Assembly (NCBI RefSeq): GCF_012849055.1
Contig: NZ_CP051677.1
Coordinates: 3,177,001-3,241,000, forward strand
DNA: 64,000 nucleotides
Source of the DNA: Spirosoma rhododendri
GTDB taxonomy: Bacteria; Bacteroidota; Bacteroidia; Cytophagales; Spirosomataceae
Direction: 5' to 3'
In this document: piece by piece, positions 30,557 through 57,328 of the stretch
How the letters are laid out: every line of letters starts with the position of its first letter
Position numbering within the stretch: position 1 is the first letter of the stretch
Program-made: the position numbers and the translations under genes
Notes under the pieces: model-generated
Told to the model about the DNA's origin: nothing
What the model saw: only the letters and a program-made list of their open reading frames with translations
Databases searched by the model: none

Positions 30557-30587
30557 CAAATGTTTTCAAGAAAATGTAAATATGCAA
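30557..30587 (-). promoter_or_regulatory. Candidate Bacteroidota sigma-ABfA-type promoter for GH115
   Basis: On the - strand TTG (30585-30587) and AACATTTG (30557-30564) are 20 nt apart, one mismatch from the TTG-N(19-20)-TAnnTTTG consensus of Bacteroidota. The TTG lies inside the palindrome at 30583-30596, so a bound repressor would block it. Found by eye only. Confidence 0.35.
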
Positions 30588-30596
30588 TCGATTGCA
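30583..30596. promoter_or_regulatory. Putative LacI-family operator
   Basis: Perfect 14-bp palindrome TGCAATCGATTGCA with the central CG step typical of LacI/GalR operators. It is in the AT-rich part of the divergent region, about 200 bp from the ATG of the regulator gene and 240 bp from that of GH115, and overlaps the candidate -33 element of GH115. I saw no second perfect copy elsewhere, but the search was by eye. Confidence 0.6.
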
Positions 30597-30798
30597 GAAT
30601 TTTCGTGCAAATTGAGCTCCCGTTTTTGACCCGTATTGACTAATGGGCAGTTGATGCATAGTCAGTCGTACTTAATTTTAGGGATCGACTCTGGTTTTGC
30701 AACTATGCAATTCATGAACGAGGTACACTGAAAATTACACCTGTCAGCCTGTACACCTACCTAACTTTACGCACTGATCGCGGTCGGTGATCGTCAAT

Positions 30799-34167: not shown

Positions 34168-35376
34168 ATGTTTGTACTCGAATCTGTTTACGCAATTGTT
34201 CTCCTCTACCTGGGACTGAGTGTGCTGTTTCTGGCCGTGTTCGCCGTTGCGGGTCGGTTTGGTGGCACCGACGACGTAAGCCCCGCCATCACGCCGGCCA
34301 CCTACCGAAAAATTGGTGTGCTGATTCCGGCCTACAAGGAAGATGCCGTTATCATTGAGTCGGTACGGACCAACCTGCGGCAGAAGTACCCCACCGATCG
34401 TTTCGAGCTGATCGTCATTGCCGATTCGATTCATCCGTCGGTGCTGGCTCAGCTGGCCGAATTGCCGATCCGGGTTATCCCGGTATCGTTTGAAACCTCG
34501 ACCGTTTCAAAGGCCATCAACGCAGCACTGGCGCAGATTCCGGCCGGGCAGTACGACGTGCTGATGGTAGCTGACGCTGACAACCACATGGCTACCGACT
34601 TTCTAAGCCGCATTAACCTGGCCTTCGAGCAGGGCTGGCAGGCCGTACAGGGGCACCGGGTTGCGAAGAACACGAATACGAGCGTGGCCGTGCTGGACGC
34701 AATCAGCGAAGAAATAAACAACCACCTGTTCCGGCAGGGAAGCCGCGCCCTGGGCCTGGCATCGTCAATCATCGGGTCGGGTATGGCATTCGAGCCGGAA
34801 CTGATGCGGGCGGGTATGGCCAGCCTGCACACGATGGGTGGCTACGATAAAGAACTTGAAATGAATATTGTGCTGGCGGGCCGCCCCATCGCCTACCTCG
34901 CCGATGCGTATATCTACGACGAAAAAGTAGCCAGCAAAGCGGTATTCGAGAATCAACGTACCCGCTGGATTGCCGCTCAGTGGCAGTTTCTGGCCCACTA
35001 CTTCCGTCCCGGTCTGCGCGAGCTGTCGGCTAGTCGGATGATGAGTGGCTTCAAAATGATACAGGCAATGGTGTTGCCCCGGGTGTTGCTGCTGGGCGTA
35101 CTAACGTTGCTCTCGGCATTAAGTTTGCTGGCGACGCAGCCGTTTTTTCAGCTTGCCGCGCCTGCCCTCTTACTCACATTATGCCTGAGTTTGGCGATTT
35201 CGGTGCCAAATTATCTCTGGAAGCGGCTGACGGTGCGTGAATTGCTAGTACTGCCTGTACTGATGCTTCGCTTTGCGCGGGCCATGCTCAACATGCGGAA
35301 AGCGTTCCGCCGGTTTATGCATACGCCCCACACCGGAACCCCCGATGTTCAGTTGCAGCCAAACAAATCCGCTTAG
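34168..35376 (+). CDS. Membrane glycosyltransferase family 2 (polysaccharide synthase-like)
   Basis: 402-residue GT2 enzyme in the inner membrane. An N-terminal transmembrane helix (about 5-30) precedes the GT-A domain with VLIPAYKEDAVIIES, the metal-binding DADN motif near 143, MGGYDKELEMN and the QRTRW motif near 267. Two or three further hydrophobic helices (about 300-350) follow. This resembles processive synthases such as those for hyaluronan or poly-N-acetylglucosamine, though the usual QxxRW is QRTRW here. It opens the exopolysaccharide locus. Donor and product are unknown. The 219-nt gap after it contains no recognised element. Confidence 0.88.
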   Translation: MFVLESVYAIVLLYLGLSVLFLAVFAVAGRFGGTDDVSPAITPATYRKIGVLIPAYKEDAVIIESVRTNLRQKYPTDRFELIVIADSIHPSVLAQLAELPIRVIPVSFETSTVSKAINAALAQIPAGQYDVLMVADADNHMATDFLSRINLAFEQGWQAVQGHRVAKNTNTSVAVLDAISEEINNHLFRQGSRALGLASSIIGSGMAFEPELMRAGMASLHTMGGYDKELEMNIVLAGRPIAYLADAYIYDEKVASKAVFENQRTRWIAAQWQFLAHYFRPGLRELSASRMMSGFKMIQAMVLPRVLLLGVLTLLSALSLLATQPFFQLAAPALLLTLCLSLAISVPNYLWKRLTVRELLVLPVLMLRFARAMLNMRKAFRRFMHTPHTGTPDVQLQPNKSA

Positions 35377-35595
35377 TAAATTCGGGTGTGACAGCCAGAT
35401 TAAAAAGTAGTCTGAATAACTAGAGCAGGTAGGATTACGCAAGCAACGCAGACCGCATCAGCCTGACACCGGTCGGTCGACTGGTGAACAAGCACCGTAA
35501 TTAAAACGGGGCAGCGTTTGGGAGTAGAGAAGTACGGAGTTCAGCCACCTGAACCCGTTTTCTCCGTTACAAACCTCGCCCCTGCACAAGTAAGT

Positions 35596-36405
35596 ATGAA
35601 ATCTGTTCTGGGTCGGGTAAGCATTGGAGTACTGGTAGGGCTGCTGATCAGCCAGGTGAGTATGGGGCAGGCGCAGCAGAAAAGCGTGCGCGGGCTAGTA
35701 TCGTTCGGTCAGGCGACGGGCGTAACGGGCGACACCTCGTTTCTGGATGTCGACAAAGATATCGCCATTCAGCTGTTGCCGTTTGAGGAGCTGACCAAGA
35801 TCGCTACGGCTTATTCACCCCTGTTGAAGTATCAGGGCGAGATTGCTAATTCGCTCGATGCCGGGTACCAGATTTCCAAGCTACAGATCCTGCAAAATAT
35901 GTCGGCTTACGGCAACTATTCGGCGGGTAACCAGGCCATCGTATCGTCGGGTGTTAATATTCCCAGTGGTGTCGATCCGGTTTCGCAGATTGCCAACGGC
36001 TACCGCTTTGGTGTCGACATGCGCGTGACACTGTATGATCTGTTTGGTCGCAAACAGCAGATGAAACAGGCGTACTCGAACTACCGCGCATCGGTGCTGC
36101 AAAAAGACATTATTGCGCAGGAAATCCGGCGGTCGCTGATCGGTATTTATCAGGATATGATTACGGCGCAGCAGGTGCTGAAAACCCGCCTGCTCGACGA
36201 ACAGGCGTCGCTGACGGCGTACCGCATCGCAGAAGCGGAAACGCAGAAGGGACGGGGGAACGCCGAAACGCTGGCTAACGCGCTGAACCGCTACGCACAG
36301 GCAAAGTCATATTCTGAGCAGGTCAAAGGCGAGTTTTTAAAGAATGTTCGGTATTTTGAGACACTCGTAGGACAACCTCTTCAACGGCTAAAACGAATCA
36401 ACTAA
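35596..36405 (+). CDS. Short TolC-like outer-membrane protein
   Basis: A 269-residue protein. The frame is open from a TTG at 35518, but ATG 35596 gives a signal peptide (MKSVLGRVSIGVLVGLLISQ ... MGQAQ) and is chosen. The rest is mainly helical, with SPLLKYQGEIANSLDAGYQI, a central segment containing an amphipathic strand (GYRFGVDMRVTLYDLFGRKQ) and a long coiled-coil (about 155-260), resembling half of a TolC subunit. Similar short TolC-type proteins accompany Wzc-like proteins in Bacteroidota polysaccharide loci. Its stop overlaps the start of the next gene by one base (TAATG), showing translational coupling. A role in the export channel is inferred. Confidence 0.7.
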   Translation: MKSVLGRVSIGVLVGLLISQVSMGQAQQKSVRGLVSFGQATGVTGDTSFLDVDKDIAIQLLPFEELTKIATAYSPLLKYQGEIANSLDAGYQISKLQILQNMSAYGNYSAGNQAIVSSGVNIPSGVDPVSQIANGYRFGVDMRVTLYDLFGRKQQMKQAYSNYRASVLQKDIIAQEIRRSLIGIYQDMITAQQVLKTRLLDEQASLTAYRIAEAETQKGRGNAETLANALNRYAQAKSYSEQVKGEFLKNVRYFETLVGQPLQRLKRIN

Positions 36406-38607
36406 TGTCAATCGACGCACTGCTCAGGCTATTTCGGCAAAATCTGCTCTGGATGATCCTGCTGCCGGTCGTTACGGCCGCAACAGCCTGGTATGTCACC
36501 CGCGATTCGGTGAAAACCTACCGTTCGGAAGCTACGCTATACACGGGTCTGGCATCCGGCTATACGCTGTTGACGGATCGGCTGGGGCAGTCGATGGACC
36601 GCTCATCCAACGCGTTCGACAACCTGCTGACGACGCTCAACTCGAAAGAAACACGCTCGCAGGTTGGCATCTCGCTGCTGAACGATCACCTGCGGCTGCA
36701 ACAGCCCGATACGCTGGTGTTGGGTTCGGCCGGGTTCGACCAACTGCATCAGGCCATCCCGGCCGACTGGCAACCGTTTCTGATGGGCGAATCTGATTCG
36801 CTGCGGCTCTGGAACCGGCTCGACAGCCTGTCGAAGCTGGCCACTGACAATCCCGTCAAGGAGATACTGTTCAAGTCGAGTCTGCCGTACTCGATCAATA
36901 CCATCGGTGAGAAGCTGATCGCGTCGGCCCGTAAAAATACCAACGACGTGCTGCTGATGGAATACGAAGCCAATGACCCGGCCGTTGCCCAGCAGACACT
37001 ACGGTACGCGATCGATGCGCTGAACCGACGCAATTCGTTTTTCAAGACATCGGAAACCAACTCGGTTGTCAGCTATTACGAAGACCGTCTCAAAGCAGCC
37101 AAAGACAAGCTGAATCTGGCCGAGGGGCGGCTGCGCGACTTTACGATGCGCAACAAAGTGCTCGATTATGATGAGGAAGCGCGTAACGTAGCGGCTTCGC
37201 GCGAGGCACTCGATCAGGATTACAACCGCGAACTGATGCAGCGGGATGCCGCCAAAGCCGCTGTCGATGCGGTAGGGAGGCAACTGGCGAAGCAGGGCAG
37301 CGTAACCGCCAACACCAACGAACTCACCGATAAACAGCGTCGGCTGACGGCGGCTGAAAGCCAGCTATCGAACGCGAAAGCGTACGGTCAGTCGCGGGCG
37401 GCCATTGCCCGTTTGCAGACCAACGTCGATCAGCTGTCGAGCGATCTGAAAGCCAGCGCGCAAAAGATGTCGTCGGCGGGAAACACGCCCGAAGCCATGC
37501 CGGCACAGACGATGCTAAACGACTGGATGGCTAAAACGCTGGAGTACGAAGAATCGGTGGCGCGGCTCAAAGTGTACGAAAAACGTCGGAACGAGTATCA
37601 GGCCAAAACCAACCAGTTTGGGCCGCTCGGGTCGCAGCTGCGGCAGTTGAACCGCGATCTGGAGATTTCGGAAAAAGAATACCTGGGGCTCCTTCAGAAT
37701 GTTGAACAATCACGGACCCGTCGGCAGGACGTCGCTGTGGGTGGAAAACTGGAAGTGCTCGATGCCCCGATTACCCGCTGTCGCCCCTGTCGTCGAAGCG
37801 CATGCAACTGGTTGTTGTGGGTGGCGGTGTTGGGTTGTTTTTGGCGCTGTTACTACTGGCCCTGCGTTTCTGGCTCGACAAACGGATTCAGTCGCCCGAA
37901 CAGGCTGAAACACTGCTGGGTCGCCCGCTAACGGCGCAGTTTCCGGTGGTGCGCAAGCCACAGGTGTACTCGAAAGTAACCCGGGCGTCGCGGGCGATGA
38001 TGGAGCAGTTGCTCAACACGATAAACATTGAAATCGCGCAGGCGGCAGGCAAGCCGTACCCCCGCTCATCACGCTATTCAGCGTACGGGCGAAGCAAGGC
38101 AAAACGTGGCTCGCCAACGGGCTGATCGATGCCTACGCCAACGCCGATCAGCAGGTGGCTTACTGCTACCCCCGCCAAACCGGGCGCGAACGGCGGCAGG
38201 ACAGGCCGGGCGTGACGTATTTCCCGTATACCATCCGGCCCGACTTTATGAACGTAACGGGTCTCGACTACCTGATCGATGCAGACAGCGGCTTCGACGC
38301 GTCGCAGTTTGATCGAATTGTGCTGGAACTGCCCCCGCTGATGAGCAATCAGATTCCGGTATATCTTCTTAAAGCCAGCGTACTGTCGATGCTGGTGGTC
38401 GACGCGCAGAGTGCGTGGGGACGGGCTGAAAAGCAGCTATTGAGTCTGTACCTGCGGGTTACGAACCAGCCCCTGCTTACGGTACTGAACCGGGTTGAAG
38501 ACAACTATGTCGATGTGCCGGGACAGGCCGATTTCAGCGAGCGCCCCCCGCGTACTGGCAGCAACGCCGAACAGCCGATGCCGCAGCCGACGCGATCAAA
38601 CCGGTAA
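36405..38607 (+). CDS. Wzc/Wzz-like polysaccharide co-polymerase with degenerate kinase domain, two frameshifts as read
   Basis: As read the frame breaks twice, at a C4 run (37765-37768) and a C5 run (38059-38063). One extra C at each joins three frames into a single 734-residue protein, the normal size for a Wzc-type co-polymerase: DAPDYPLSPLSSKRMQLVVV across the first, KPYPPLITLFSVRAKQGKTW across the second. Layout: TM helix 1 (about 10-28), periplasmic coiled-coil (about 180-450), TM helix 2 (about 465-490), then a cytoplasmic BY-kinase-like domain. Its Walker A reads SVRAKQGKTW, lacking the first glycine, and Walker B is IVLELPP instead of the usual IIDTPP. No tyrosine cluster is visible at the C-terminus. 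It probably sets chain length without tyrosine-kinase activity. Confidence 0.82.
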
Positions 38608-38660: not shown

Positions 38661-41600
38661 ATGTCAGATCATGTATTCGCCGTAGCGCAACAGGCCCTGC
38701 CCGACTCCTTCACAATACACCGCCTGGTGGCCGATGCCATGGTGCGCACCGCCCCCGACACGACTGCCGTGCGGATAGGTGGCGAACTCCTGACGTACCG
38801 GCAGCTGGATGAGCAGTCAGACATACTGAGTCAGGCCATTCTCCGGGTAGCGTCCGATAGTCAGCTGGTAGGAATCAGCTGCACCCGCAGTCTTGATATG
38901 GTTGTGGGTGTGCTGGCGATTCTGAAAGCGGGCAAGGCGTATCTGCCCCTTGACCCCACCTATCCCGACGCCCGGCTGCGGCAGCTCATCAACGATTCCG
39001 GGGTGCAGCACTGCCTGTCGACGACCGCTGACGAGCCGCTGTTTACCGAACTGGGTCTGCACGTGATTCGCCCGGATGCAACCCAGGATGGTCCATCGCA
39101 AGCCGTCACGACGCAGAACGAAACGGCCTGTGTACTCTACACGTCGGGCTCGACAGGTAAGCCGAAGGGCGTTTGTCTGACCCACATGGGGCTGGTCAAC
39201 ATGCTGACCAATCAGGTGGGTCGCTGGGCTGGTCAGCCGGGCTTGCAGACCCTTCAGTTCTGTCACCTGAGCTTCGACGCGTCCTTCCAGGAAATTTTCG
39301 TGCCGCTGCTCACGGGTGGCACCATTCACCTTGTCGACGATTCGTACCGGCTCAACGCGGGGCGGTTGCTCGACTATATCGAACAGGAACGCATCAACCG
39401 GGTATTCCTGCCCTACGTGGTGCTCCAATACCTGACCGAAACGGCCGTTGCCAGTCATCGGTTTCCCGCCGACCTACGGGAGATCATCACCGGTGGCGAA
39501 CTGCTCAAAATAACCCCCGCCATCGCGCAATTTTTCGACGCCCTGCCCGGCTGTGCGCTGATGAACGTGTACGGCCCGACCGAAGCGAGCGTCTGGGTGA
39601 CGGAAAACCGCTTGCAGGGCGACGCCTTGAACTGGCCTCAACTGCCGAGCATCGGGCGGGTGGTGCCGGGTTGTGGCGTTATCATTCTCAACGAACAGCT
39701 TGAGCCGGTAGAGGAGGGTGAAATCGGCGAAATTGGTATCGCGGGCGTATGCCTGGCCAATGGCTACCTCAACCAGCCGGATCGCACCGCCGACGCGTTT
39801 ATCGACTGGCAGCACCCGCAGTACGGCCCAACGCGACTGTACCGCACGGGTGATCTAGCCCGGTTTATGCCCGACGGCACGCTCGACTTTCACGGTCGGC
39901 GGGATACGCAGGTAAAGATTCGGGGTAACCGGGTCGAACTGGGCGAAATCGAAGTGTTACTGGCGCAGCAGCCCGCCGTGCAACAGGCAGTTGTGGTGGC
40001 GCGGGAAGACATACCGGGTCACAAACGACTGGTGGCCTACGTGGTGGTTCCGGCGACTAATTTTTCCGTCCCGCTGCTCCGCACTGCGCTGACCGAGCGG
40101 TTGCCCGATTTCATGCTGCCGACCTACTATGTCCGGCTCGATGATCTGCCCCGCACCACAAGTGGTAAAGTCGACAAGGCGCAGCTGCCCCCGCCCGATC
40201 ACAGCCGCCCCGACCTGACAACCTTGCTCCGCCCGGCCCGTACGGCGCTGGAGAAAGAAATTGTCGGTATGTGGGGCGAGTGGCTGCAACTGAACCCCGT
40301 CGGGCTGGATGATAATTTCTTCGAACTGGGCGGTAATTCCCTGCTGGCGCAACAGACCATCGCGGCCCTGGAGCAACGCGGCTTTACGGTACCTATCACC
40401 AAACTGTACCAATACCCGACAGCGGGTGCGCTGGCTGAATTTATCCAGCCAACAACCAGTATTCGGCCCGGACAGCCGCAACCTGAATTAACCGCTCCCC
40501 GTCGTGCTACTGCCGACGATACCGACGTGGCGGTGATTGGTATGAGCGGCCGTTTTCCGGGAGCCAGCACCATCGATGAACTGTGGTCGTTGCTGAAAGA
40601 AGGGCGTGAAACGACCCGCTTTTTCACCGACGCCGAACTCGACGCGGCTATCCCGGCGTCGGTCCGGGAGAACCCGCAGTACGTAAAAGCGCGGGGCGTT
40701 ATCGACGGTGCCGATCAGTTCGACGCCCGCTTCTTTGGCCTGACCCCCGCCATCGCGCAGGTGATGGACCCGCAGCAGCGTATTTTTCTGGAGATCGCCT
40801 ACGAAGCCCTCGAAACGACCGGCTACCTGCCCGAACTGTACGGCGGTCGGGTAGGGGTGTTTGCGGGTTGTGGCAACAATACATACTACCTGAACAATGT
40901 CCTGGCTAACCCTGACGTGGTGGCGCAGGTCGGTTCGTTTCAGGCCATGACCGTCAACGAGAAGGATTACATTGCCTCCCGGACGGCTTATCAACTCAAT
41001 CTCAACGGCCCCGCCGTGAGCGTCTACTCAGCCTGCTCGACGTCGCTGCTGGCGATTACGCAGGCGGTGCAAAGCCTGCGTAGCGGACAGTGTGAGGTGG
41101 CGCTGGCGGGTGGGGCCAGTATTACGGCACCCGTCAGCAGTGGGCATCTGTATCAGGAAGGGGCCATGTTCAGCAGCGACGGGCACACCCGCTCGTTCAA
41201 CGCCGACTCAACGGGTACCGTCTTTAGCGACGGTGCCGGGGTGGTGTTGCTGAAACGACTGACCGACGCCCGTCGCGACGGCGATACGGTCTACGCGGTT
41301 ATCAAAGGCATCGGCGTCAATAACGACGGAGGCAACAAAGGCAGCTTCACGGCACCCAACGCCGACGGACAGGCCGGTTCGATTCGGATGGCCCTCGCCG
41401 ATGCGCAGGTCGACCCGGCAACGATCAGCTACGTTGAAGCGCATGGTACGGCGACTCCCGTTGGCGACCCGATCGAAATCGAAGGACTAACGGCGGCTTT
41501 CGGCCCGCAGGACCGGAATCAGTACTGCGCCATTGGTTCGATCAAGAGTAATATGGGGCACCTGACGCAGGCAGCGGGGGTGGCCGGGCTGATAAAAGCG

Positions 41601-44600
41601 GTACTGAGTCTGCATTATCGGCAACTCCCACCGTCGATCAACTACGAGCGGCCCAACCCCGTTATCGACTTCGCCAACAGTCCGTTCTACGTCAACGCAA
41701 CCCTGCGCGACTGGGATCAGGAACAAGAATCAACAGCACGCCGGGCGAATTCACGCCGAGCGAATCCACGCCGGGCGAATCCACGCCGGGCGGGCGTTAG
41801 TTCGTTCGGCGTGGGCGGTACCAACGTTCACGTCGTGCTGGAGGAATTCGCGGAAACCGTTACCGAACCGATCAGCGACAAACCTGCGCGGCCCGTTCAA
41901 CTACTGATGTGGTCGGCAAAGTCGGTCGCCAGTCGGCACGCTTTTGCGCAGCAACTGGTTGCCCGGCTGCAACAGCCCAATGCCCCTGCCTTGGCCGACG
42001 TTGCGTTTACGCTGCCCCTGACCCGACCCGGCTACGTCCATCGTCAGTTTGCCGTGGCGGCATCGGCCGACGAGCTAACGCAGACACTAACCAGCAATCC
42101 GGGGATCAATGCCCAGACACTTGGCCGCGCGCCCGGCGATGTCGTGTTTTTGTTTCCGGGGCAGGGGGCGCAGTTCCTGAATATGGGCCGGGCTCTGTAC
42201 GAGTACGAACCCACGTTCCGGCAGGCGATCGACGACTGCGCTGAGCACCTGCGTCCGCATCTCGATGTCGACATCCGGAAGGTGCTATATCCTGATACCA
42301 TCAATTTGGAAGTCGAGCAGCAACTGCGCAACACACGCTACACGCAGGCGGCTTTGTTCGTAACGGAATACGCCCTGGCCCGGCTCTGGATGAGCTGGGG
42401 TATTGAGCCATCAATTTTATGCGGTCACAGCGTCGGGGAATTCGTGGCGGCTCATCTGGCGGGCGTATTCACGCTGCCGGATGCCTTACGGCTCGTCGCG
42501 GCTCGTGGTCGGCTGGTGAGCGAACAGCCGCGCGGCAGTATGCTATCGGTGCGGCTGGGTATTGATCAGCTTCAGCCGCTGTTGCCAGATACGTTGTCGG
42601 TGGCCGCTGTCAACAGCCGCCATCTGTGCGTAGTGGCGGGGCAGGACGAGGATATTGCCGATTTCGCCCGGCTGCTCGACGAACGGGAAATTCCCAATCG
42701 GCCGCTGGCAACCAGTCACGCATTTCACTCGGCCATGATGGACCCCATCGTGACGCAATTCGCCGAAATCGTCAAAACAGTACCACTCAGCCGACCGCAA
42801 AAACCCATTGTGTCGACGGTAACGGGTACCTTTATGACCGATGCGCAGGCTACCGACCCGGCTTACTGGGCCACGCACCTCCGCGCAACGGTACGCTTCG
42901 CTGACGCCCTCGACACGATTCTGACGCTCGACAAGCCACTTTTGCTGGAAGTCGGGCCGGGCCGCTCGATGGCTACCTTGGCCAGACAACATGCAACCGG
43001 TCAGGCGCAGCCGGGATCGGTACTGGCTGGACTGGCAACGCAGGCCGACGACAAAGCCACGTATGAAGCACTGCTGACGACGCTTGGCCAGTTGTACCTG
43101 CACGGCCTGCCCATCGACTGGCGCGCGTTTTATGCCGGGCAAAACAGGCGACGGGTGGCCCTGCCGACTTACGCGTTCGACCGGCGTCGCTGCTGGATCG
43201 ATGCCCCCGTCAGCAACCCGGTACTTACTGAGCTACTACCTTCCTATACTACGAATCAACAAGCGAGTAATTCTTCTACACCGCCTATGAGAACTCCCTC
43301 TCTTCTTAACAAAATCTACCAGCTACTGGAGGATGCATCGGGCATCGAAATGGCCGATGTAGCGCCGGAAACAAGTTTTCTCGAACTCGGTTTCGATTCC
43401 CTCCTGCTGACGCAGATGGCCATTACCCTCCGTAACGAGTTTGGTACGCCCATTACCTTCCGGCAGCTAACCACCGACCTGACCAGCCCCAACGATCTGG
43501 CCGCTTTCCTCGATCAGCAACTACCCGCCGATCAGTATGCACCGGCACCGGTGGCTGTGCCCGCGCCTGTTGCTGCCCCTGTTAGTCAGCCTGCGCCGAT
43601 GGCTGAGCCAGTTATGCCCGCTATGGCTCCCATGCCGATGGCGGCCGCACCTGCCCTTATGCCCGTCGGTATGGTCGGTGGTGATTCTGCGCTGGGGCTG
43701 ATCGCTCAGCAACTGCAACTGCTGGCCCGGCAGGTAGCCCTGATGCAGGGCGTTCCCGCACAGCCTGCGCCGGTAGCCCCGCCCGTTGCCGTTCCGCCCG
43801 CTCCAACCCCGCAGCCGGTAGCGGTACAGCAACCCATAGCACCACCAGCCCCGCCGATAAAGCCCGCTACGCTATCCGTACCGACAACGGGAGAACTGAC
43901 GCCGGAGGAAGCGATTGAGCACAAAAAGCCATTCGGAGCAACGGCTAAAATCGAACGGCAGACACAGGAACTGACGCAACCGCAGCAACAATTTCTCGCT
44001 CAGCTTACGCAGCGGTACAACAGCAAAACGGCGGGTAGCAAAGCCTATGCGCAGCAACATCGGGCGCAGATGGCCGATCCGCGCGTGGTGTCGGGCTTCC
44101 GTCCGCTGACTAAAGAAATCGTGTATCCCATCGTGGTCAACCGCTCGGCGGGGAGCCGGTTGTGGGACGTCGACGGCAACGAATACATCGACGTGCTGAA
44201 TGGCTTTGGGTCCAACATGTTCGGCTATCAGCCTGACTTTATCAAAAAAGCACTGCACGAGCAGATCGAAAAAGGCTTTGAGGTTGGGCCGCAGCACGAG
44301 CTGGCGGGCGAGGTTAGTCAGCTGGTTTGCGAACTGACCGGATCGGAGCGCGTGGCGCTGTGCAACACTGGTTCCGAAGCGGTGCTGGGAGCCATGCGCG
44401 TCGCCCGGACGATTACCGGCCGGTCGCTGATTGTGGCATTCGCGGGTTCGTACCACGGCATTGTCGATGAAGTACTGGTGCGCGGGTCGAAGAAGCTGAA
44501 GACCTTCCCGGCGGCATCGGGCATCATGGCCAACGTGGTGCAGAACATGCTTATCCTGGACTATGGTACCGACGAAAGTCTGCGGATCATCCGGGAGCGG

Positions 44601-45482
44601 GCCGACGAACTGGCGGCTGTACTGGTCGAGCCGATACAAAGCCGACGCCCGGAATTTGTCCCCATTGACTTCCTGAACGAATTGCGGTCGATTACAACCG
44701 CGTCGGGTTCAGCCCTGATTTTCGATGAAGTCATCACCGGCTTCCGTATGCACCTGGGCGGGGCGCAGGCCCTGCTCGGTATCCGGGCCGACATGGCGAC
44801 CTACGGCAAAGTGGCCGGGGCGGGTATGTCGATCGGCATTATTGCCGGGAAGCGGTCGTTTATGGATGCGCTCGATGGTGGCCACTGGCAATACGGCGAC
44901 GCGTCGGCTCCTGAAGTGGGCGTGACGTACTTCGCCGGTACGTTTGTGCGGCACCCGCTGGCGCTGGCCGCTGCGAAGGCGTCGATGCTGCACCTGCGCG
45001 AGCAGGGCGTTGGACTACAGCAGGCCCTGACCCGCAAAACAACCTACCTGGCCGATACGCTGAACACCTACCTGACCGAGCGGCAGCTGCCCATGTTCAT
45101 CGCTCATTTCGGGTCGCTCTGGAAGCTCAAGTTTACCGAAGACGTACCGTACGCTGAACTGCTGTTCACGCTGATGCGCGAAAAAGGCATTCATATCTGG
45201 GACGGTTTCCCCTGCTTTATGACCGAAGCGCATACCGACGAGGAACTGAGCACGGTGATCGACGCATTCTGCCGCAGCATCGATACGATGATCGACGCGA
45301 CGTTTTTTCCGGGTAAATCGGTAAGCACCACTCCGCCGGTCAGTGCCGGATCAACCCTGTATCAGCTAGAGCCACCTGTGGCCGGGGCCAGATTAGGCCG
45401 TGACCGCGCAGGTAACCCGGCCTGGTTTTTGCCCGACCCCGAGCGGCCTGGTGCCTATTTACAGGTTGATTTAATGGCCTGA
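38661..45482 (+). CDS. Hybrid NRPS-PKS: A-PCP-KS-AT-ACP-aminotransferase (2273 aa)
   Basis: Assembly-line enzyme. Domains: adenylation (about 20-515; YTSGSTGKPKG near 157, YGPTEAS near 304, SGKVDK near 500), PCP (GGNSLL, Ser near 560), ketosynthase (about 620-1060; Cys in SACSTSLL near 792, His in EAHGTAT near 927 and NMGHLTQ near 967), acyltransferase (about 1160-1450; GHSVGEF, and HAFH near 1353, which indicates malonyl-CoA), ACP (GFDSLL, Ser near 1580), a Pro/Ala/Met-rich linker (about 1620-1770), and a PLP-dependent aminotransferase of the glutamate-semialdehyde type (about 1800-2220; Lys near 2050 in TYGKVAGAG). No ketoreductase, dehydratase, condensation or thioesterase domain. Expected chemistry: amino acid loaded, extended with malonate, beta-ketone converted to amine. 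The next gene starts 3 nt later. Confidence 0.93.
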   Translation: MSDHVFAVAQQALPDSFTIHRLVADAMVRTAPDTTAVRIGGELLTYRQLDEQSDILSQAILRVASDSQLVGISCTRSLDMVVGVLAILKAGKAYLPLDPTYPDARLRQLINDSGVQHCLSTTADEPLFTELGLHVIRPDATQDGPSQAVTTQNETACVLYTSGSTGKPKGVCLTHMGLVNMLTNQVGRWAGQPGLQTLQFCHLSFDASFQEIFVPLLTGGTIHLVDDSYRLNAGRLLDYIEQERINRVFLPYVVLQYLTETAVASHRFPADLREIITGGELLKITPAIAQFFDALPGCALMNVYGPTEASVWVTENRLQGDALNWPQLPSIGRVVPGCGVIILNEQLEPVEEGEIGEIGIAGVCLANGYLNQPDRTADAFIDWQHPQYGPTRLYRTGDLARFMPDGTLDFHGRRDTQVKIRGNRVELGEIEVLLAQQPAVQQAVVVAREDIPGHKRLVAYVVVPATNFSVPLLRTALTERLPDFMLPTYYVRLDDLPRTTSGKVDKAQLPPPDHSRPDLTTLLRPARTALEKEIVGMWGEWLQLNPVGLDDNFFELGGNSLLAQQTIAALEQRGFTVPITKLYQYPTAGALAEFIQPTTSIRPGQPQPELTAPRRATADDTDVAVIGMSGRFPGASTIDELWSLLKEGRETTRFFTDAELDAAIPASVRENPQYVKARGVIDGADQFDARFFGLTPAIAQVMDPQQRIFLEIAYEALETTGYLPELYGGRVGVFAGCGNNTYYLNNVLANPDVVAQVGSFQAMTVNEKDYIASRTAYQLNLNGPAVSVYSACSTSLLAITQAVQSLRSGQCEVALAGGASITAPVSSGHLYQEGAMFSSDGHTRSFNADSTGTVFSDGAGVVLLKRLTDARRDGDTVYAVIKGIGVNNDGGNKGSFTAPNADGQAGSIRMALADAQVDPATISYVEAHGTATPVGDPIEIEGLTAAFGPQDRNQYCAIGSIKSNMGHLTQAAGVAGLIKAVLSLHYRQLPPSINYERPNPVIDFANSPFYVNATLRDWDQEQESTARRANSRRANPRRANPRRAGVSSFGVGGTNVHVVLEEFAETVTEPISDKPARPVQLLMWSAKSVASRHAFAQQLVARLQQPNAPALADVAFTLPLTRPGYVHRQFAVAASADELTQTLTSNPGINAQTLGRAPGDVVFLFPGQGAQFLNMGRALYEYEPTFRQAIDDCAEHLRPHLDVDIRKVLYPDTINLEVEQQLRNTRYTQAALFVTEYALARLWMSWGIEPSILCGHSVGEFVAAHLAGVFTLPDALRLVAARGRLVSEQPRGSMLSVRLGIDQLQPLLPDTLSVAAVNSRHLCVVAGQDEDIADFARLLDEREIPNRPLATSHAFHSAMMDPIVTQFAEIVKTVPLSRPQKPIVSTVTGTFMTDAQATDPAYWATHLRATVRFADALDTILTLDKPLLLEVGPGRSMATLARQHATGQAQPGSVLAGLATQADDKATYEALLTTLGQLYLHGLPIDWRAFYAGQNRRRVALPTYAFDRRRCWIDAPVSNPVLTELLPSYTTNQQASNSSTPPMRTPSLLNKIYQLLEDASGIEMADVAPETSFLELGFDSLLLTQMAITLRNEFGTPITFRQLTTDLTSPNDLAAFLDQQLPADQYAPAPVAVPAPVAAPVSQPAPMAEPVMPAMAPMPMAAAPALMPVGMVGGDSALGLIAQQLQLLARQVALMQGVPAQPAPVAPPVAVPPAPTPQPVAVQQPIAPPAPPIKPATLSVPTTGELTPEEAIEHKKPFGATAKIERQTQELTQPQQQFLAQLTQRYNSKTAGSKAYAQQHRAQMADPRVVSGFRPLTKEIVYPIVVNRSAGSRLWDVDGNEYIDVLNGFGSNMFGYQPDFIKKALHEQIEKGFEVGPQHELAGEVSQLVCELTGSERVALCNTGSEAVLGAMRVARTITGRSLIVAFAGSYHGIVDEVLVRGSKKLKTFPAASGIMANVVQNMLILDYGTDESLRIIRERADELAAVLVEPIQSRRPEFVPIDFLNELRSITTASGSALIFDEVITGFRMHLGGAQALLGIRADMATYGKVAGAGMSIGIIAGKRSFMDALDGGHWQYGDASAPEVGVTYFAGTFVRHPLALAAAKASMLHLREQGVGLQQALTRKTTYLADTLNTYLTERQLPMFIAHFGSLWKLKFTEDVPYAELLFTLMREKGIHIWDGFPCFMTEAHTDEELSTVIDAFCRSIDTMIDATFFPGKSVSTTPPVSAGSTLYQLEPPVAGARLGRDRAGNPAWFLPDPERPGAYLQVDLMA
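41737..41796 (+). repeat. Four in-frame 15-bp tandem repeats in the KS-AT junction
   Basis: Units CACGCCGGGCGAATT, CACGCCGAGCGAATC, CACGCCGGGCGAATC and CACGCCGGGCGGGCG follow one another. They encode ARRANSRRANPRRANPRRAG just before the conserved GVSSFGVGGTNVHVVLEE end of the ketosynthase, where other KS domains have a short segment. The unit length keeps the frame, so copy number could vary without breaking the gene. Confidence 0.92.
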
Positions 45483-45485
45483 TGC

Positions 45486-48400
45486 ATGGTAGACAACGTT
45501 ACAAACCCACAACTGACCGCCGTTGATTTTGATCCCTTCGCGGGACCGCCCATAGCCCTGCTGGCTCCGACGATCGAGCCGCAGCAAGAGCTATGGGCGT
45601 CCTGTCTGCTGGGGGGCGACGATGCCAGCCGGGCTTACAATGAGTCGGTGTCGCTGCGGTTTACGGGCCGGCTCGATAGGCTGCTTTTCGAGCGGGCCCT
45701 GCAACAACTGGTTCAGCGACACGAAGCCCTGCGGTCGGCATTCAGCGCCGACGGGCAGCAGATGCTTATTTTTTCGGAACTGATCATTCCGCTTTATTAT
45801 CAGGATATCAGTGAGCAGTCGTCGGCTTCCCAGCAGCAGCTAACGGCCGACTACGTGCGGGTCGACGCCGAGTACCGGTTCGATCTGCTCGACGGGCCGT
45901 TGCTCAAACCGGGTCTGTTCCGGCTGGGCGAACTCGACCATCTGTTCGTACTGACCGCGCACCACATCGTCTGCGATGGCTGGTCGCTGGGGATTATGTT
46001 GCAGGATCTGGGCCGGATGTATTCCGGGCTGGTGCAGCACCGGCCGGTTAGCCTGCCCGCTCCGCCCCAGATCAGCGACTACGCCCATCAGCAGCTGATG
46101 TACTCCAACAGCCCGGCTTACCGGCAGACCGAACAGTACTGGCTCGACCTGTACCGGGATGCCGTGCCGACGGTGAGCCTGCCGACCGACTGGCCCCGTC
46201 CCGCTCTGCGAACCTTTCAGAGCGCCCGGCAGGATTACCCGCTGCGGGCTGATCTGGGACCGGCTCTGCGTAAGGTAGGGGCCAAAGCCGGAGCCAGTTT
46301 TGTGACGACGCTAATTGCCGCATTCGAGGTGCTGTTGCAGCGGCTGACGGGCCAAACCGACCTGATCGTTGGTCTGCCCACGGCGGGGCAATCGGCGACC
46401 GACAATCCGCGACTGGTTGGTCACTGCGTCAATTTGCTGCCCCTCCGCAGCCGCCCGCAACCCGATCTATCGTTTGTCGATTACCTGCGCGTCCGAAAGG
46501 GTGAGCTGCTCGACGCGTTCGAGCACCAGCAGCTGACGTTTGGCACCCTGCTCAAAAAACTGAGCATTCCCCGCGACCCCTCCCGTGTGCCGATGGTGCC
46601 GGTGCTCTTCAATGTCGACCTCGGCCTGACCGAAGATATTGCGTTCGAAGGACTTACGTATCAGTTCATTAGTAACCCCCGCGCCTACGAAACGGTCGAA
46701 CTGTTTCTGAACATTGGCGGGTCGGTAACCGATCTGACGATGGAGTGGTCGTACAATACGCAGCTGTTCCGGCCCGATACCATCGATCGGATGATGGCTG
46801 GCTTTGAAACACTGCTGGAAACGGTTGTCGAAAACCCCGCCGTTCGCATTGGCGACATAGCCCTGGGCGGTGAGCGCGAGCTGCTGCAAAAACTCGCTGA
46901 CTGGAACGACACGACGGTAGCTTACCCGGACAATCAGCCGCTGACGCACTTGCTGACCAAAACGGCCGGACAGTTTGCCGATAAAGTCGCGCTGGTGGCC
47001 GGGAATCAGCAGCGCACGTACCGCGAACTTGATTTGGTTTCGAGTCAGGTCGCGCAGGCACTGCACCGGTCGGGTATCGGCCGGGGCGACGTGGTGGGCG
47101 TCTTGCTCGACCGCACCCCCGACCTGCTGGTGGCGTTGCTGGCCGTGATGAAAGCCGGGGCCGCTTACGTCCCGCTCGACCCCGATTACCCGCAGGACCG
47201 TATCGCGTTTATGCTGACCGATTCGGGCGCGAAACTGTTGCTGACGTCCCGCAAATACGGGCGCGGTGGGGTAGGGGGTCAAACGCCAGAACGTCTGATT
47301 GAAACGCTGCTGACCGAATCGACAGACCTGCCCACAACTGCCCCCAACCTGCCGTTGAATGGCCGCGATCTGGCGTATATTCTGTACACGTCGGGCTCGA
47401 CGGGCCGGCCGAAGGGGGTGCAGATCGAACACCGTAGTTTGGTCAATCTGCTCGACAGCATGATCGACTGGCCCGGTATCACGCCCGACGACCGGTTGCT
47501 GGCCGTTACAACCATTTCGTTCGACATCGCCGGGCTGGAACTTTACCTGCCGCTGCTGACGGGCGCAACACTGGTGCTGGCCGACGCCGAAACCACCCGC
47601 GACGGTCGGGCTTTGCTACAGATGCTGACCGATCAGCAGATCAGCCTGATTCAGGCAACACCGGTTACGTATCGGATGCTGCTGGCGGCTGGCTGGGAAC
47701 AGCCGCTACCGGTGAAGGTACTGTGCTGTGGCGAACCGCTGCCAAAAGATCTGGCTCAGAAGCTGACCGCCCGCTGCGCGTCGCTGTGGAATATGTACGG
47801 CCCCACCGAAACAACGATCTATTCGTCGGGTAAGCAGATTCTGCCCACCGATGAGGTCATTACGATCGGTCGGCCCATCCATAACACGCAGATTTATATT
47901 CTCGATGAACAGCAGCAACCGGTGGCCGACGGGGTGGCGGGTGAGCTGTATCTGGCGGGTGATGGCGTGGCACGGGGCTACCTGAACCGGCCTGAGCTGA
48001 ACACCGAAAAGTTTGTCGCCGACCCGTTTAGTGCTACGCCCGGCGCGCGGATGTACCGCACGGGCGACCTGGGTCTGTTCATGCCCGATGGTGAAATTAA
48101 CTGTCTGGGTCGTATTGATCAGCAGATCAAGATTCGCGGCTATCGGATCGAACCGGGCGAAATCGAGCAGGTGCTGCTGAAGCAGGACGGTGTACACGAA
48201 ACGCTGGTGATGGCGCGGGAAGACCGCCCCGGCGACAGGCGGCTGGTGGCCTATGTGCTGGCTCCTGAACTGACCGATGACACATTCATCAACCGCGTCG
48301 GCGACTGGAAAAACCAGCTACGCGATGTGCTGCCGACCTACATGGTTCCGGCTGATTTTGTGCGGATCGATCAATGGCCGATCACACCAAATGGTAAAAT

Positions 48401-49523
48401 CGACCGAAAAGCCCTGCCCAAACCCGCTGCGCTGACTGACCTCCCCGGAAAGTCGCAGCCAACGAGTGTTATTGAGAAGCAGATTGCCCAGATCTGGAGC
48501 GAGGCCCTCGGGCTGACGCAGATTGGTCTGGACGACGATTTCTTTGACCTGGGTGGCCATTCGATGATTGCTGTGCAGGTGATGACGCAGCTCGAAACCG
48601 TAACCGGCCGACGGCTACCCCTGTCGACGCTGATGACCGCGCCAACCATCCAGAAGCTGGCCCTGCTGTTTGATGCCGACAAACCGGCTACGCACTGGAA
48701 ATCGCTGGTACCGATCAGGCCGGAGGGGAGCAAGACGCCAATCTACATCATCCACGGTATCGGTCTTAATCTGCTGAATTTCAATAGTCTGGTGTCGTAC
48801 ATGGACCCCGATCAGCCCATCTACGGCTTACAGGCGCGGGGTCTTGACGGTACCGACGAGCCGTTTGACCGGATGGAGGATATTGCCGCCTTTTACATCA
48901 GCGAAATCGTGCAGCAGAACCCCGACGGGCCATATGCCATTGCCGGTTATTCGTTTGGCGGCTACGTGGCTCTTGAGATGGCGCAACAACTTCAGGCGAT
49001 GGGTAAATCGGTGAAGATGCTGGCGATGTTTGATACCAACGCAGAACCGTCGATCCGTCACTGGTCGACGGGGGCGAGATTCTGGTGGCGCGCTACCCGA
49101 CAGTTGCCTAAGCTACGCTGGATCGGTGCATCACTATTGAAAAATCCGGGGCAGACGATACGGTATCAGGCCGCGTTTGCCAGGTCGTTGTCGCAACGGC
49201 TGATGCATAAGTTGGGGATGTATGAAACGCCACAGGTAGAGCCGGGTATGGATCATCTGAGCCGGATCATGGAGAAGCATGAGATCGCCTACGAGAACTA
49301 CCGGTTTAAATCCTACGACGGAGTCATCGACCTGTTCAAGGCACAGAGCCGGATTTACTTCGTGGAAGACAACAAGTCGCTGGGCTGGGGAAAATACGCC
49401 AGACAGGTACGGGTACACGACGTGCCGGGTGACCACCAGATGATGATGATGCCCCCAACGACAAGGTCTTCGCGCAGGTGTTACAGCGTGCCCTGGACCG
49501 GTGTTCCAAGTCGTAAGATGTGA
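45486..49523 (+). CDS. NRPS: C-A-PCP-TE (about 1343 aa), C-terminal frameshift as read
   Basis: Second, terminating module. Condensation domain (about 40-440; HHIVCDGW near 160), adenylation domain (about 470-975; YTSGSTGRPKG near 632, YGPTETT near 770, NGKIDRKALP near 968), PCP (GGHSMI, Ser near 1024) and type I thioesterase (about 1070-1340; GYSFGGY, Ser near 1156; His in PGDHQ near 1317). As read the last 20 or so residues are out of frame (ending at 49523). One more C in the C5 run near 49462 gives MMMMPPNDKVFAQVLQRALD and a stop at 49514-49516. A-domain pocket residues read by alignment to PheA give about D-I-L-Q-L-C-M-I-Y-K, closest to the glycine code I know. Translation is coupled to the upstream PKS gene. 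Confidence 0.92.
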   Translation: MVDNVTNPQLTAVDFDPFAGPPIALLAPTIEPQQELWASCLLGGDDASRAYNESVSLRFTGRLDRLLFERALQQLVQRHEALRSAFSADGQQMLIFSELIIPLYYQDISEQSSASQQQLTADYVRVDAEYRFDLLDGPLLKPGLFRLGELDHLFVLTAHHIVCDGWSLGIMLQDLGRMYSGLVQHRPVSLPAPPQISDYAHQQLMYSNSPAYRQTEQYWLDLYRDAVPTVSLPTDWPRPALRTFQSARQDYPLRADLGPALRKVGAKAGASFVTTLIAAFEVLLQRLTGQTDLIVGLPTAGQSATDNPRLVGHCVNLLPLRSRPQPDLSFVDYLRVRKGELLDAFEHQQLTFGTLLKKLSIPRDPSRVPMVPVLFNVDLGLTEDIAFEGLTYQFISNPRAYETVELFLNIGGSVTDLTMEWSYNTQLFRPDTIDRMMAGFETLLETVVENPAVRIGDIALGGERELLQKLADWNDTTVAYPDNQPLTHLLTKTAGQFADKVALVAGNQQRTYRELDLVSSQVAQALHRSGIGRGDVVGVLLDRTPDLLVALLAVMKAGAAYVPLDPDYPQDRIAFMLTDSGAKLLLTSRKYGRGGVGGQTPERLIETLLTESTDLPTTAPNLPLNGRDLAYILYTSGSTGRPKGVQIEHRSLVNLLDSMIDWPGITPDDRLLAVTTISFDIAGLELYLPLLTGATLVLADAETTRDGRALLQMLTDQQISLIQATPVTYRMLLAAGWEQPLPVKVLCCGEPLPKDLAQKLTARCASLWNMYGPTETTIYSSGKQILPTDEVITIGRPIHNTQIYILDEQQQPVADGVAGELYLAGDGVARGYLNRPELNTEKFVADPFSATPGARMYRTGDLGLFMPDGEINCLGRIDQQIKIRGYRIEPGEIEQVLLKQDGVHETLVMAREDRPGDRRLVAYVLAPELTDDTFINRVGDWKNQLRDVLPTYMVPADFVRIDQWPITPNGKIDRKALPKPAALTDLPGKSQPTSVIEKQIAQIWSEALGLTQIGLDDDFFDLGGHSMIAVQVMTQLETVTGRRLPLSTLMTAPTIQKLALLFDADKPATHWKSLVPIRPEGSKTPIYIIHGIGLNLLNFNSLVSYMDPDQPIYGLQARGLDGTDEPFDRMEDIAAFYISEIVQQNPDGPYAIAGYSFGGYVALEMAQQLQAMGKSVKMLAMFDTNAEPSIRHWSTGARFWWRATRQLPKLRWIGASLLKNPGQTIRYQAAFARSLSQRLMHKLGMYETPQVEPGMDHLSRIMEKHEIAYENYRFKSYDGVIDLFKAQSRIYFVEDNKSLGWGKYARQVRVHDVPGDHQMMMMPPTTRSSRRCYSVPWTGVPSRKM

Positions 49524-49727: not shown

Positions 49728-50294
49728 TCATGATTTGACGATCAGATTATGCTTATCCAGTAAACCGGGCAGGCTATAGAGTGAGAATTTTGCCTTCTTT
49801 AATCGGTTTACATCGGGGTCGAGTGTGATGTTGAAGGAGGTCGAAAAGTCGACCTGATTCAGCGTATTATCGTCGAATTTTGTGAGTTCAAGGTCACAGC
49901 GGTCGAAGAGAGCCCCGGTCATGTCGCAGCGGATGAACAGGACGCTTTTGATGGAGCACTCCACGAATTTGGCCTTTACCAGCCGCCGATTGAGAAAAAT
50001 ACTCTGATCGAGTTGACAGGCTTGAAAATCAGCGTGAAACCCAAACGGGTTGCAGGTGCCGAAGTCGACGCCCTGCACCGCACAGCCAACAAAAGCGACG
50101 TCGTTGAACTGCGTCTGTTTCACAGCACAGCGGATCAGCATGCACTGCTCAAACCGGCAATTGATAAAATTAGCCCCCGCCAGCATCGTCGGCGTCGGGC
50201 TCAGCTTCTGAAACGTACACTGTTCGAAGGTGTGCCCCGCCCATTGGCTGGGTAAGTCATCTGACGTTGTGTACAGCTGTTTGTAATGCTCCAT
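49728..50294 (-). CDS. Pentapeptide-repeat protein (Qnr/McbG-like fold)
   Basis: A 188-residue cytoplasmic protein built of A(D/N)LxX-type pentapeptides, e.g. GANFINCRFEQCMLIRC, VDFGTCNPFGFHADFQACQL, AKFVECSIKSVLFIRCDMTG and ALFDRCDLELTKFDDNTL, with many Cys and Phe at the central positions. The C-terminal end (NRLKKAKFSLYSLPGLLDKH) is the capping helix seen in Qnr/McbG-like proteins. Such right-handed beta-helices mimic DNA and can protect gyrase from toxins, but many have no known role. The gene lies between two copies of a repeat, 3 nt from one and touching the other, and just behind the NRPS genes on the opposite strand. Self-immunity is only a hypothesis. Confidence 0.88.
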   Translation of the reverse strand: MEHYKQLYTTSDDLPSQWAGHTFEQCTFQKLSPTPTMLAGANFINCRFEQCMLIRCAVKQTQFNDVAFVGCAVQGVDFGTCNPFGFHADFQACQLDQSIFLNRRLVKAKFVECSIKSVLFIRCDMTGALFDRCDLELTKFDDNTLNQVDFSTSFNITLDPDVNRLKKAKFSLYSLPGLLDKHNLIVKS

Positions 50295-50451
50295 GTCTCG
50301 AACCGCGATTTTCCTGATTTACTGATTTTAAAGAGAATCACAGTTCAGATAATGTCTGAACTGTGATTCTCTTGATCGCTTTGATTACCCTGATTTCAAA
50401 ATAATCATAGCCTATCAGCGTAATCACAAAAATCACAGTTCAGACAATCAC
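50291..50451. repeat. AT-rich repeat, family 2, copy 2 with perfect 19-bp hairpin
   Basis: Same orientation and word order as copy 1 (CGATTTTCCTGATTT ... CTATCAGCGTAATCAC ... AATCACAGTTCAGACAATCA). Its centre is a perfect 19-bp stem AAGAGAATCACAGTTCAGA (50331-50349) with its complement 50355-50373 and a TAATG loop. The left terminal repeat is eroded to GTCTCGAAC, and overlaps the start of the pentapeptide gene. The right end contains the stop codon of the flippase gene (50448-50450). Confidence 0.85.
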
Positions 50452-51890
50452 GACAACAGCGATTGCCGATACGTCTTCAGCTCGGCGAAAGACAGCTTGT
50501 AGTTGAGCGTCAGCAGGCCGTACGTCAGGCCGCCAAGCCCTACCTGAACGATGGTGTTCAGGATACCCTCGTAGCCTACGAACTGCTTGTAGGCGTAAAC
50601 GACCAGCACCATCACAAGGCAGAAAACCGTTGGCCAGGCAATGTTGCGCAGGAAAGCACCGAAGAAGTCGCCGATCAGGTAGTGGACAACCCCAAAGTTG
50701 GCGATCAGGTTAAACAGCGTTGCCAGCAGAAAGGCAGTGGCGATACCCATCACACCAAAGTAAGTGCCGAGGAAATAAACCAGCGGGAGCTTTACGATCA
50801 GCGTTACTACGTTCAGGTAAAACAGCAGGTTTGGTTTGCCCTTCGTAAACGCAAGCGTAAACAGCGGATGGCTGAGGCAGGTAAACCAGCCCACGAACAC
50901 AAAGATTCGGATCAGTTCGATGGTCTTGTCCCAGCCGGGGCCGTAGAAGAGCGGCACCACGCTTTCGGCCGTAATAAAGAGCCCCGCCAGCAGCGGCATG
51001 TTGCAGTAGCTGACGAAGTCCAGAATTTTCAGGTACGACTTTTTCAACTCCACCGTACTTTCCTTCATCTTCGCCAGAATGGGGTAGGCCACCTGTAGAA
51101 TGATCGGGTTCAGCTTCGTAATTGGGAAAATCGACAGCTGATAGGCAATGGTGTAATACCCCAATAGTTTCACGCCCAGCATGCCGCCGATGAAAATATT
51201 GTCGGCGTTCGACTGTATGAAGCCCAGCAGACCGTCGCCGAGATTGAATAGACCGAAGCGCAGGTGTTCGCCGATATTCCGCATGTCGAAAGCCAGCGTT
51301 GGGGAGAAATAAGGCAACCCGAAAATGACCTGAAATACGGTTTTGATCGTCTGATTGATCAGCGAGCCGATGATGAGCGAGAGCTCATGGTAGCCATTGT
51401 ACGCTAGTGTTACTGTCGCAATTGACCCGATCACCGTACCCAGAATGTCGATAATCGCTACGGCCCGAAACTTAAGCTCTTTCTGGAGCAGAAACAGGTA
51501 TAGCTGCCCGAAATACACGATTAGGAAGTAGTAAGACGACAGGTGAACGACTTCCGCCAGCTTCGGCTCCTTGTAAAACGAAACAATCAGGGGGGTGCTC
51601 AGGTAAACGGCCACGAAAATTATGACCCCAACGATCAGGTTGAGGTAATACAGCGTCGATAGCACCCGGCGGTCGCTTTCCTGCTTGTAAATGATGGAGT
51701 TGGAAAACCCCAGGCTGGAAAAAATGGTGAAAAAGCCAATGACGAGGTTGCTGATACTGACGATACCGAAGTCGGCGGGTACGAGAAGCCGGGCCAGTAC
51801 AGCTACCTGTCCGAACTGGAAAACGGTGGAGATTACGGTTGCAATCGTAATCCACTTGCCACCGTTCATGGCTTTGTCTTTGTTACTCAT
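50448..51890 (-). CDS. Polysaccharide flippase, MOP superfamily (Wzx-like)
   Basis: 480-residue inner-membrane protein with about 12-14 hydrophobic helices and no signal peptide. It opens with KWITIATVISTVFQFGQVAV and LLVPADFGIVSISNLVIGFF, the start typical of the lipopolysaccharide-biosynthesis flippase (PST/MVF) family; LGYYTIAYQL and YPILAKMKES in the middle also fit. It should move lipid-linked repeat units across the inner membrane for polymerisation by the Wzy-like protein at 60.1-61.5 kb. Its stop codon is inside repeat family 2. Substrate unknown. Confidence 0.9.
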   Translation of the reverse strand: MSNKDKAMNGGKWITIATVISTVFQFGQVAVLARLLVPADFGIVSISNLVIGFFTIFSSLGFSNSIIYKQESDRRVLSTLYYLNLIVGVIIFVAVYLSTPLIVSFYKEPKLAEVVHLSSYYFLIVYFGQLYLFLLQKELKFRAVAIIDILGTVIGSIATVTLAYNGYHELSLIIGSLINQTIKTVFQVIFGLPYFSPTLAFDMRNIGEHLRFGLFNLGDGLLGFIQSNADNIFIGGMLGVKLLGYYTIAYQLSIFPITKLNPIILQVAYPILAKMKESTVELKKSYLKILDFVSYCNMPLLAGLFITAESVVPLFYGPGWDKTIELIRIFVFVGWFTCLSHPLFTLAFTKGKPNLLFYLNVVTLIVKLPLVYFLGTYFGVMGIATAFLLATLFNLIANFGVVHYLIGDFFGAFLRNIAWPTVFCLVMVLVVYAYKQFVGYEGILNTIVQVGLGGLTYGLLTLNYKLSFAELKTYRQSLLS

Positions 51891-57321: not shown

Positions 57322-57328
57322 GAACAGT

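Follow-up and report, generated by a model that had tools for sequence, protein, structure and literature searches.

A nonribosomal peptide-polyketide-aminotransferase operon within an exopolysaccharide locus of Spirosoma and its predicted 3,4-diamino-acid product

The subject of this analysis is a two-gene operon in a 64,000-nucleotide stretch of the Spirosoma rhododendri genome (contig NZ_CP051677.1, positions 3,177,001 to 3,241,000; hereafter the window, in whose own numbering positions are given). The operon encodes a compact line that combines nonribosomal peptide synthetase (NRPS) and polyketide synthase (PKS) domains with an aminotransferase. We lean towards the reading that its two proteins would make a short pseudo-peptide composed of a 3,4-diamino acid and a glycine-like residue. 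The assembly line is real and probably active, its layout is a known but uncharacterised one, and a diamino-acid product is plausible from the domain content. Judged by its genes, the region around the operon is a Wzx/Wzy exopolysaccharide locus, a setting missed by an earlier reading of the same DNA from its letters alone (the original prediction). If the proposed chemistry holds, a widespread Bacteroidota family, in which the starter adenylation domain is naturally varied and the ketosynthase-acyltransferase-aminotransferase part is kept, would offer a short way of making vicinal 3,4-diamino acids, which chemists use as units in protease inhibitors.

Domain order and catalytic residues

Two open reading frames (ORFs) on the forward strand, at 38661-45482 and 45486-49523, encode proteins of 2273 and 1345 amino acids (proteins 1 and 2) and are separated by 3 nucleotides; the host genome is 6.05 Mb. 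Pfam resolves protein 1 into A-PCP-KS-AT-ACP-AMT (adenylation, peptidyl carrier, ketosynthase, acyltransferase, acyl carrier and aminotransferase domains) and protein 2 into C-A-PCP-TE (condensation, adenylation, carrier and thioesterase domains), with no match to a ketoreductase (KR), dehydratase (DH), enoylreductase (ER) or methyltransferase in either protein. The ORFs and Pfam matches thereby bear out the order, the short spacer and the lack of a ketoreductase that had been predicted originally.

Along protein 1, AMP-binding (residues 28-370) and AMP-binding_C (429-503) delimit the first adenylation domain, A1 (38742-40169), followed by PP-binding at 533-595 (PCP1, 40257-40445), KS at 621-996 (40521-41648), AT at 1162-1480 (42144-43100), a second PP-binding stretch (ACP, 43290-43500, approximate limits) and Aminotran_3 at 1822-2179. 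The last belongs to a class III aminotransferase (43926-45311) that aligns with the MycA aminotransferase 6kfu over residues 1756-2217. Catalytic residues were examined in an alignment of 129 protein 1 sequences, namely the window, 13 loci and 115 database matches chosen by length among 120 listed (8000 candidates were scored and at least 120 matches listed); the set consists of fairly close, partly redundant relatives. Invariant in all 129 are the carrier serines (Ser560 in PCP1 and, placed by alignment, Ser1580 in the ACP), the ketosynthase triad Cys792, His928 and His967, the acyltransferase Ser1257 and His, and the AMT residues Asp2022, Lys2050 (the pyridoxal phosphate (PLP) lysine) and Thr2094. 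The malonyl-type acyltransferase motif HAFH (1353-1356), also noted originally, is kept across the alignment, with H1353, F1355 and H1356 in 129/129 and A1354 in 128/129.

The AMT scored 421 bits against the MycA aminotransferase 6kfu and 419 against 6kfm, while the best glutamate-1-semialdehyde aminomutase reached 181. By score it is of the MycA kind and distinct from stand-alone HemL-type aminomutases, so that its original assignment to the iturin/mycosubtilin type stands. MycA is described as carrying out glutamine-dependent amination of a beta-keto thioester (PMC3870968). By analogy, the window line may perform a glutamine-dependent beta-amination of a carrier-bound ketone.

In protein 2 (Pfam, tblastn, alignment), whose last residues are in another frame than in its relatives, Condensation spans residues 45-464 (45618-46877; His160 and Asp164 of HHxxxDG), AMP-binding 491-833 and AMP-binding_C 892-971 (second adenylation domain, A2, 46956-48398), PP-binding 999-1059 (PCP2, 48480-48662; Ser1026) and Thioesterase starts at 1085 (48738-49436; Ser1156, Asp1183, His1317). 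The condensation-domain His and Asp, the carrier Ser and the thioesterase Ser-Asp-His are invariant in 14 of 14 aligned proteins.

Adenylation codes and predicted substrates

Code positions were placed by motif, and an alignment to LgrA supports the placement. The window codes read DAQFIGVVW(K) for A1 and DILQLCMIY(K) for A2. A1 exceeds the cut-off of the amino-acid adenylation model TIGR01733 (368.6 bits against 317.4), Asp235 is kept in 129/129 sequences and the lysine at the last code position in 128/129. Relatives carry A1 codes that are exact for threonine (DFWNIGMVH), Pro-like, Asp/Asn-like or Val-like. A 2025 survey assigns DFWNIGMVHK to threonine (with N-methyl threonine) and DILQLGMIWK to glycine, and reports proline codes as usually having Val236 and Gln239 (PMC12283262).

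Were A1 to activate an aryl or fatty acid instead, the line would make a simple beta-amino acid. The iturin-type chain does derive from a fatty acid (PMC4219810), and the window A1 code carries no substrate assignment. We reject this alternative as very improbable in view of the invariant Asp235, the TIGR01733 score and the exact threonine and Pro-like codes of relatives; the amino-acid starter proposed originally is borne out by the same evidence, together with the Asp/Asn-like and Val-like codes.

Variation among relatives was followed in the best 80 loci from GTDB representatives, which are the best 80 of at least 579 confirmed stretches (of 599), the 579 possibly including other aminotransferases. 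A1 codes over 77 loci were Pro-like in 31, D.TK.G in 9, threonine in 5 and Val/Ile-like in 2, the rest being others that include the window type. Codes at the A2 position, over 69 loci, were Gly-like by a loose pattern in 52, Asp/Asn-like (DLTKMGHIG) in 7 and Pro-like (DVQYMAQVV) in 4, with six single others; DILQLCMIY itself occurs in 13 of 14 Spirosoma proteins. To go by the codes, the starter amino acid is varied across relatives and the second is mostly Gly-like. The second building block of the window line is probably glycine or some comparable small residue, a prediction that had been missed originally. Median identity to the window over the best 80 loci is 50% for A1, 68% for KS and 70% for AMT, the lower value for A1 being as expected if starter domains are exchanged.

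Proposed chemistry

Domain order, a malonyl-type AT, the lack of a KR, a MycA-type AMT and an amino-acid starter together lead us to the 3,4-diamino-acid prediction. The domains are present in the sequence, and the following chemical steps are proposed from them. A phosphopantetheinyl transferase (PPTase) would arm the carriers. A1 would load an alpha-amino acid onto PCP1, as its code and family suggest. The KS would join this aminoacyl group to AT-loaded malonate, giving a 4-amino-3-oxo thioester on the ACP that, with no KR, DH or ER found, would keep its ketone. The AMT, by homology to MycA, would convert the 3-ketone to an amine and so give a 3,4-diamino acyl-ACP. The C domain of protein 2 would then join the diamino acyl group to A2-loaded glycine or a similar small residue, as its code suggests, and the TE would release the product in linear or cyclised form.

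A candidate activator is encoded in the window, by an Sfp-type PPTase gene (55538-56287, forward strand) that is one of two PF01648 matches in the genome and is likely to serve the carrier domains. Of 64 loci, 37 have a PPTase-like ORF no more than 1 kb past gene 2; that of the window is 6 kb downstream. A search of the host genome found no MbtH protein, and the A domains therefore seem to be MbtH-independent.

4-Amino-3-oxo thioesters can cyclise spontaneously. The AMT might thus aminate an aminoacyl ketone inefficiently, and the intermediate might close to a tetramic acid or pass on as the ketone. This chemistry is general, and one position of the AMT motif ALC[NS]TG does vary (N in 75 and S in 54 of the 129 sequences). 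Against it, the AMT Asp, PLP lysine and Thr never vary in the alignment, the AMT falls in the MycA clade by score, and a C domain comes next as in MycA-type systems; we regard such an outcome as improbable. Premature gamma-lactam formation by the 4-amine was also considered.

Several results weigh against the diamino-acid-glycine prediction. In 17 of 69 loci the code at the A2 position falls outside the Gly-like pattern, and that of the window departs from the glycine code DILQLGMIWK at two positions (Cys301, Tyr331). For the A1 code DAQFIGVVWK we found no match in open-licence PMC papers, and open-licence PMC full texts yielded no characterised product for the A-PCP-KS-AT-ACP-AMT / C-A-PCP-TE architecture. 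An AlphaFold model of the AMT, built on a 20-row alignment, had a mean pLDDT of 59.6 and was too poor to use. Finally, five of the best 80 loci keep protein 1 with no C-A-TE partner within 600 bp downstream or fused to it; in two of these five (L104 and L112) a C-A-TE gene lies about 1 kb further on.

Distribution and comparison with known systems

According to the original prediction, no system described from Bacteroidota was known to have precisely this domain arrangement. This does not hold, since Milano et al. 2013 tabulate the Pedobacter heparinus protein C6XWU5 as A-CP-KS-AT-CP-PLP1 with the antiSMASH prediction Nrp-Mal-Gly-Pk (PMC3870968, Table 2), and the layout in this phylum is known in silico. 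C6XWU5 likewise has an Aminotran_3 domain, and its prediction places glycine next; the window A2 code is Gly-like and not identical to DILQLGMIWK. C6XWU5 is likened to protein 1 by layout and not by sequence, and in that paper it is listed in the table, with neither a product nor a discussion of diamino acids in section 7. Other Pedobacter species are among the best 80 loci, with AMT identities of 67-71%.

The layout recurs among the best 80 loci, whose genera include Spirosoma, Hymenobacter, Fibrella, Rudanella, Larkinella, Pedobacter, Mucilaginibacter, Flavobacterium and Puia. Protein 1 is A-KS-AT-AMT in 76 of the 80, and in the 75 with enough flank a C-A-TE protein is directly next in 65, longer versions follow in 3 and none in 7 (of which one encodes the line as a single fused chain). 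A survey of 395 Bacteroidota genomes gave the AMT, at E 1e-150 or better, in 15 (9 of 170 genera); two of the 15 score clearly weaker (E ~1e-163 and 1e-185) and could represent other AMT systems. Within Spirosoma, the AMT is present in 30 of 36 genomes. Some loci represent the same genome twice across sets (e.g. L015 and L055), and the sets were not added together. We reject uniqueness of the system in light of these loci, the 15 of 395 genomes and the 2013 listing.

The mycosubtilin and iturin synthases (MycA, ItuA) share with the window line KS-AT-ACP in cis before a homologous AMT, followed by a C domain. They elongate a fatty acyl chain and make a long cyclic lipopeptide, whereas the window line starts with an amino-acid A domain and is predicted to make a pseudo-dipeptide. 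Likewise, the puwainaphycin synthase PuwE is described with a PKS module, an aminotransferase and then an NRPS module, but differs in its fatty acyl starter, monooxygenase domain and long peptide (PMC4219810). A-CP-KS-AT-CP-PLP1 modules fed by an A domain are also listed for Thiorhodococcus drewsii G2E5C9 and Salinisphaera shabanensis F7QBN5, in longer single chains, in other phyla and with no products given (PMC3870968).

The operon in a polysaccharide locus

Wzx, Wzy, Wzc-like and glycosyltransferase genes form one block around the operon, as assigned by Pfam, model NF007773 and synteny. Upstream, on the forward strand, are genes for a GT2-type glycosyltransferase (34168-35376; Pfam, conserved upstream), an outer membrane efflux protein with one OEP stretch and an uncertain start codon (35518-36405; Pfam, synteny) and a Wzc/Wzz-like GNVR protein (36405-38607). 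The last is 731 amino acids long in the related locus L015 and has two frame changes here; it was assigned by Pfam, alignment, comparison within the genus and PDB matches, the best of which, Wzc and PslE, are weak (E ~1e-5). Downstream lies a Wzx/MOP-family polysaccharide flippase gene on the reverse strand (50448-51890; Pfam, NF007773 over cut-off, synteny), and two secreted-protein genes separate it from the PPTase gene. Beside the PPTase gene, the forward strand carries genes for a conserved protein of unknown family (56365-57321; synteny), with no usable Pfam or PDB match, and for a GT11-type glycosyltransferase (57302-58174; Pfam). The reverse strand then encodes a GT group 1 glycosyltransferase (58874-60052; Pfam), a candidate Wzy_C/O-antigen-ligase-type polymerase (60056-61546; Pfam, synteny) and two GT2-type glycosyltransferases (61602-62864 and 62825-63748, together 61602-63748; Pfam). 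The GT2, GNVR/Wzc-like, Wzx, Wzy_C and further glycosyltransferase genes resemble those of Wzx/Wzy exopolysaccharide loci with Wzc/PslE-like proteins. Compared with usual loci of this kind, the NRPS-PKS pair and PPTase are interleaved here, with a single-stretch OEP protein as outer membrane partner. The pentapeptide-repeat protein encoded at 49728-50294, adjoining protein 2, has a relative only in L016 among the loci fetched for comparison.

Within the genus, the NRPS-PKS-AMT core, intact or broken, is present in 29 of 36 genomes. In 28 of the 29, a gene for a relative of the Wzc-like GNVR protein with at least 58% identity (in pieces where broken) lies at a distance of 47-609 bp from the core gene; none of the seven coreless genomes (G009, G021, G025, G026, G031, G033 and G035) has one, their GNVR relatives reaching at most 48% or being lacking (G033). 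The exception with a core, G015, has a broken core and only GNVR relatives of at most 48%. G035, counted as coreless, has only the stand-alone paralog; G021, also counted as coreless, is an assembly 82% complete with a GT2 gene at 89% and a Wzx gene at 91% to the window, and the missing core may be an assembly gap. In genomes with both genes on one contig, Wzx lies no further off than 20 kb in 24 of 25, and Wzy no further than 30 kb in 23 of 24. G019 is the exception for both: GT2, GNVR and core lie together, with Wzx and Wzy 3.2 Mb away. In the fetched loci, gene order to the left is shared as far as the GT2 gene and no further, except in L015 (genome G030), and G008 and G013 are without that GT2 gene at high identity.

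Because the operon has a constant place in a Wzx/Wzy locus in Spirosoma, we suggest, more tentatively than for the chemistry, that its product probably works on, at or together with the cell surface in this genus. In a more specific and rather doubtful version, the pseudo-dipeptide would be an amide or ester substituent of the surface polysaccharide, or would be exported by the Wzc-like/OEP pair, the combined locus giving a cationic peptide-bearing exopolysaccharide with the starter swapped between species. Somewhat short of an even chance, in our estimate, is that the link reflects shared inheritance of neighbouring genes and that the peptide is unrelated to the polysaccharide. Across the phylum, a strict rule finds the Wzc-like gene next to gene 1 in just 9 of the best 80 loci, Rudanella and Flavobacterium sp. 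SUN052 among them (L066 and L070 also show the adjacency, in broken or overlapping form), the core occurs with no Wzc-like gene in Hymenobacter, Pedobacter and other relatives, and Spirosoma has a second polysaccharide locus type that lacks an NRPS and whose Wzc-like paralogs are at 44-48%. Against mere co-inheritance, the Wzc-like subfamily tracks the core within the genus, core and Wzc-like gene are broken together in G016 and G023, the left block stays with the core in G019 despite the distant Wzx and Wzy, and left synteny stops at the GT2 gene except in G030. The link has a further limit in an extra core copy in G023 (L054), which has no cassette. The near-obligate place of the operon in a polysaccharide locus of one genus offers a direct test of nonribosomal peptides as parts of exopolysaccharides, or as sharing export with them.

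Integrity of the window copy

Compared with relatives from genome G030, the window has four frame changes in about 16 kb, two in the Wzc-like gene (36405-38607), one near the end of protein 2 (49466) and one in a secreted-protein gene (52281). In G030 (L015) the genes are about 83% identical and the frames whole. These changes could mean that the strain has a decaying or in part wrongly sequenced copy, which might be non-functional. We consider that unlikely: gene 1 (6.8 kb) is unbroken, none of the catalytic residues examined is lacking, and what protein 2 loses lies past its catalytic His (in tblastn, the match to the L015 protein breaks off at residue 1328 of 1340, beyond that His). Single frame changes clustered this closely also fit sequencing errors.

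Other forms of the line

Within the genus, seven loci encode a stand-alone A-PCP-KS-AT-ACP-AMT protein with a threonine code (L035:8923-16410, L036:7375-14837, L037:2969-10418, L041:7114-14573, L042:5887-13302, L043:5219-12652 and L044:7379-14935). Each has a related GNAT acetyltransferase gene just upstream and no adjoining C-A-TE gene. In L039 (3177-15044) and L040 (7782-19670), likewise of the genus, the line is one fused A-KS-AT-AMT-C-A-TE protein of 3955-3962 amino acids with the A1 code DAEQCGKVN. Versions of protein 2 of about 1745 amino acids, with a methyltransferase inside A2, occur at L062:11552-16795 and L071:11515-16749, which suggests sarcosine (N-methylglycine) as the residue added there. 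A large PKS-NRPS at L045:441-19504 in genome G011 contains a more distant AMT (46% identity). Elsewhere in the window, positions 24352-31824 carry plant-polysaccharide utilisation genes (GH67, GH115, a short-chain dehydrogenase and a LacI-type regulator) that appear unrelated to the operon.

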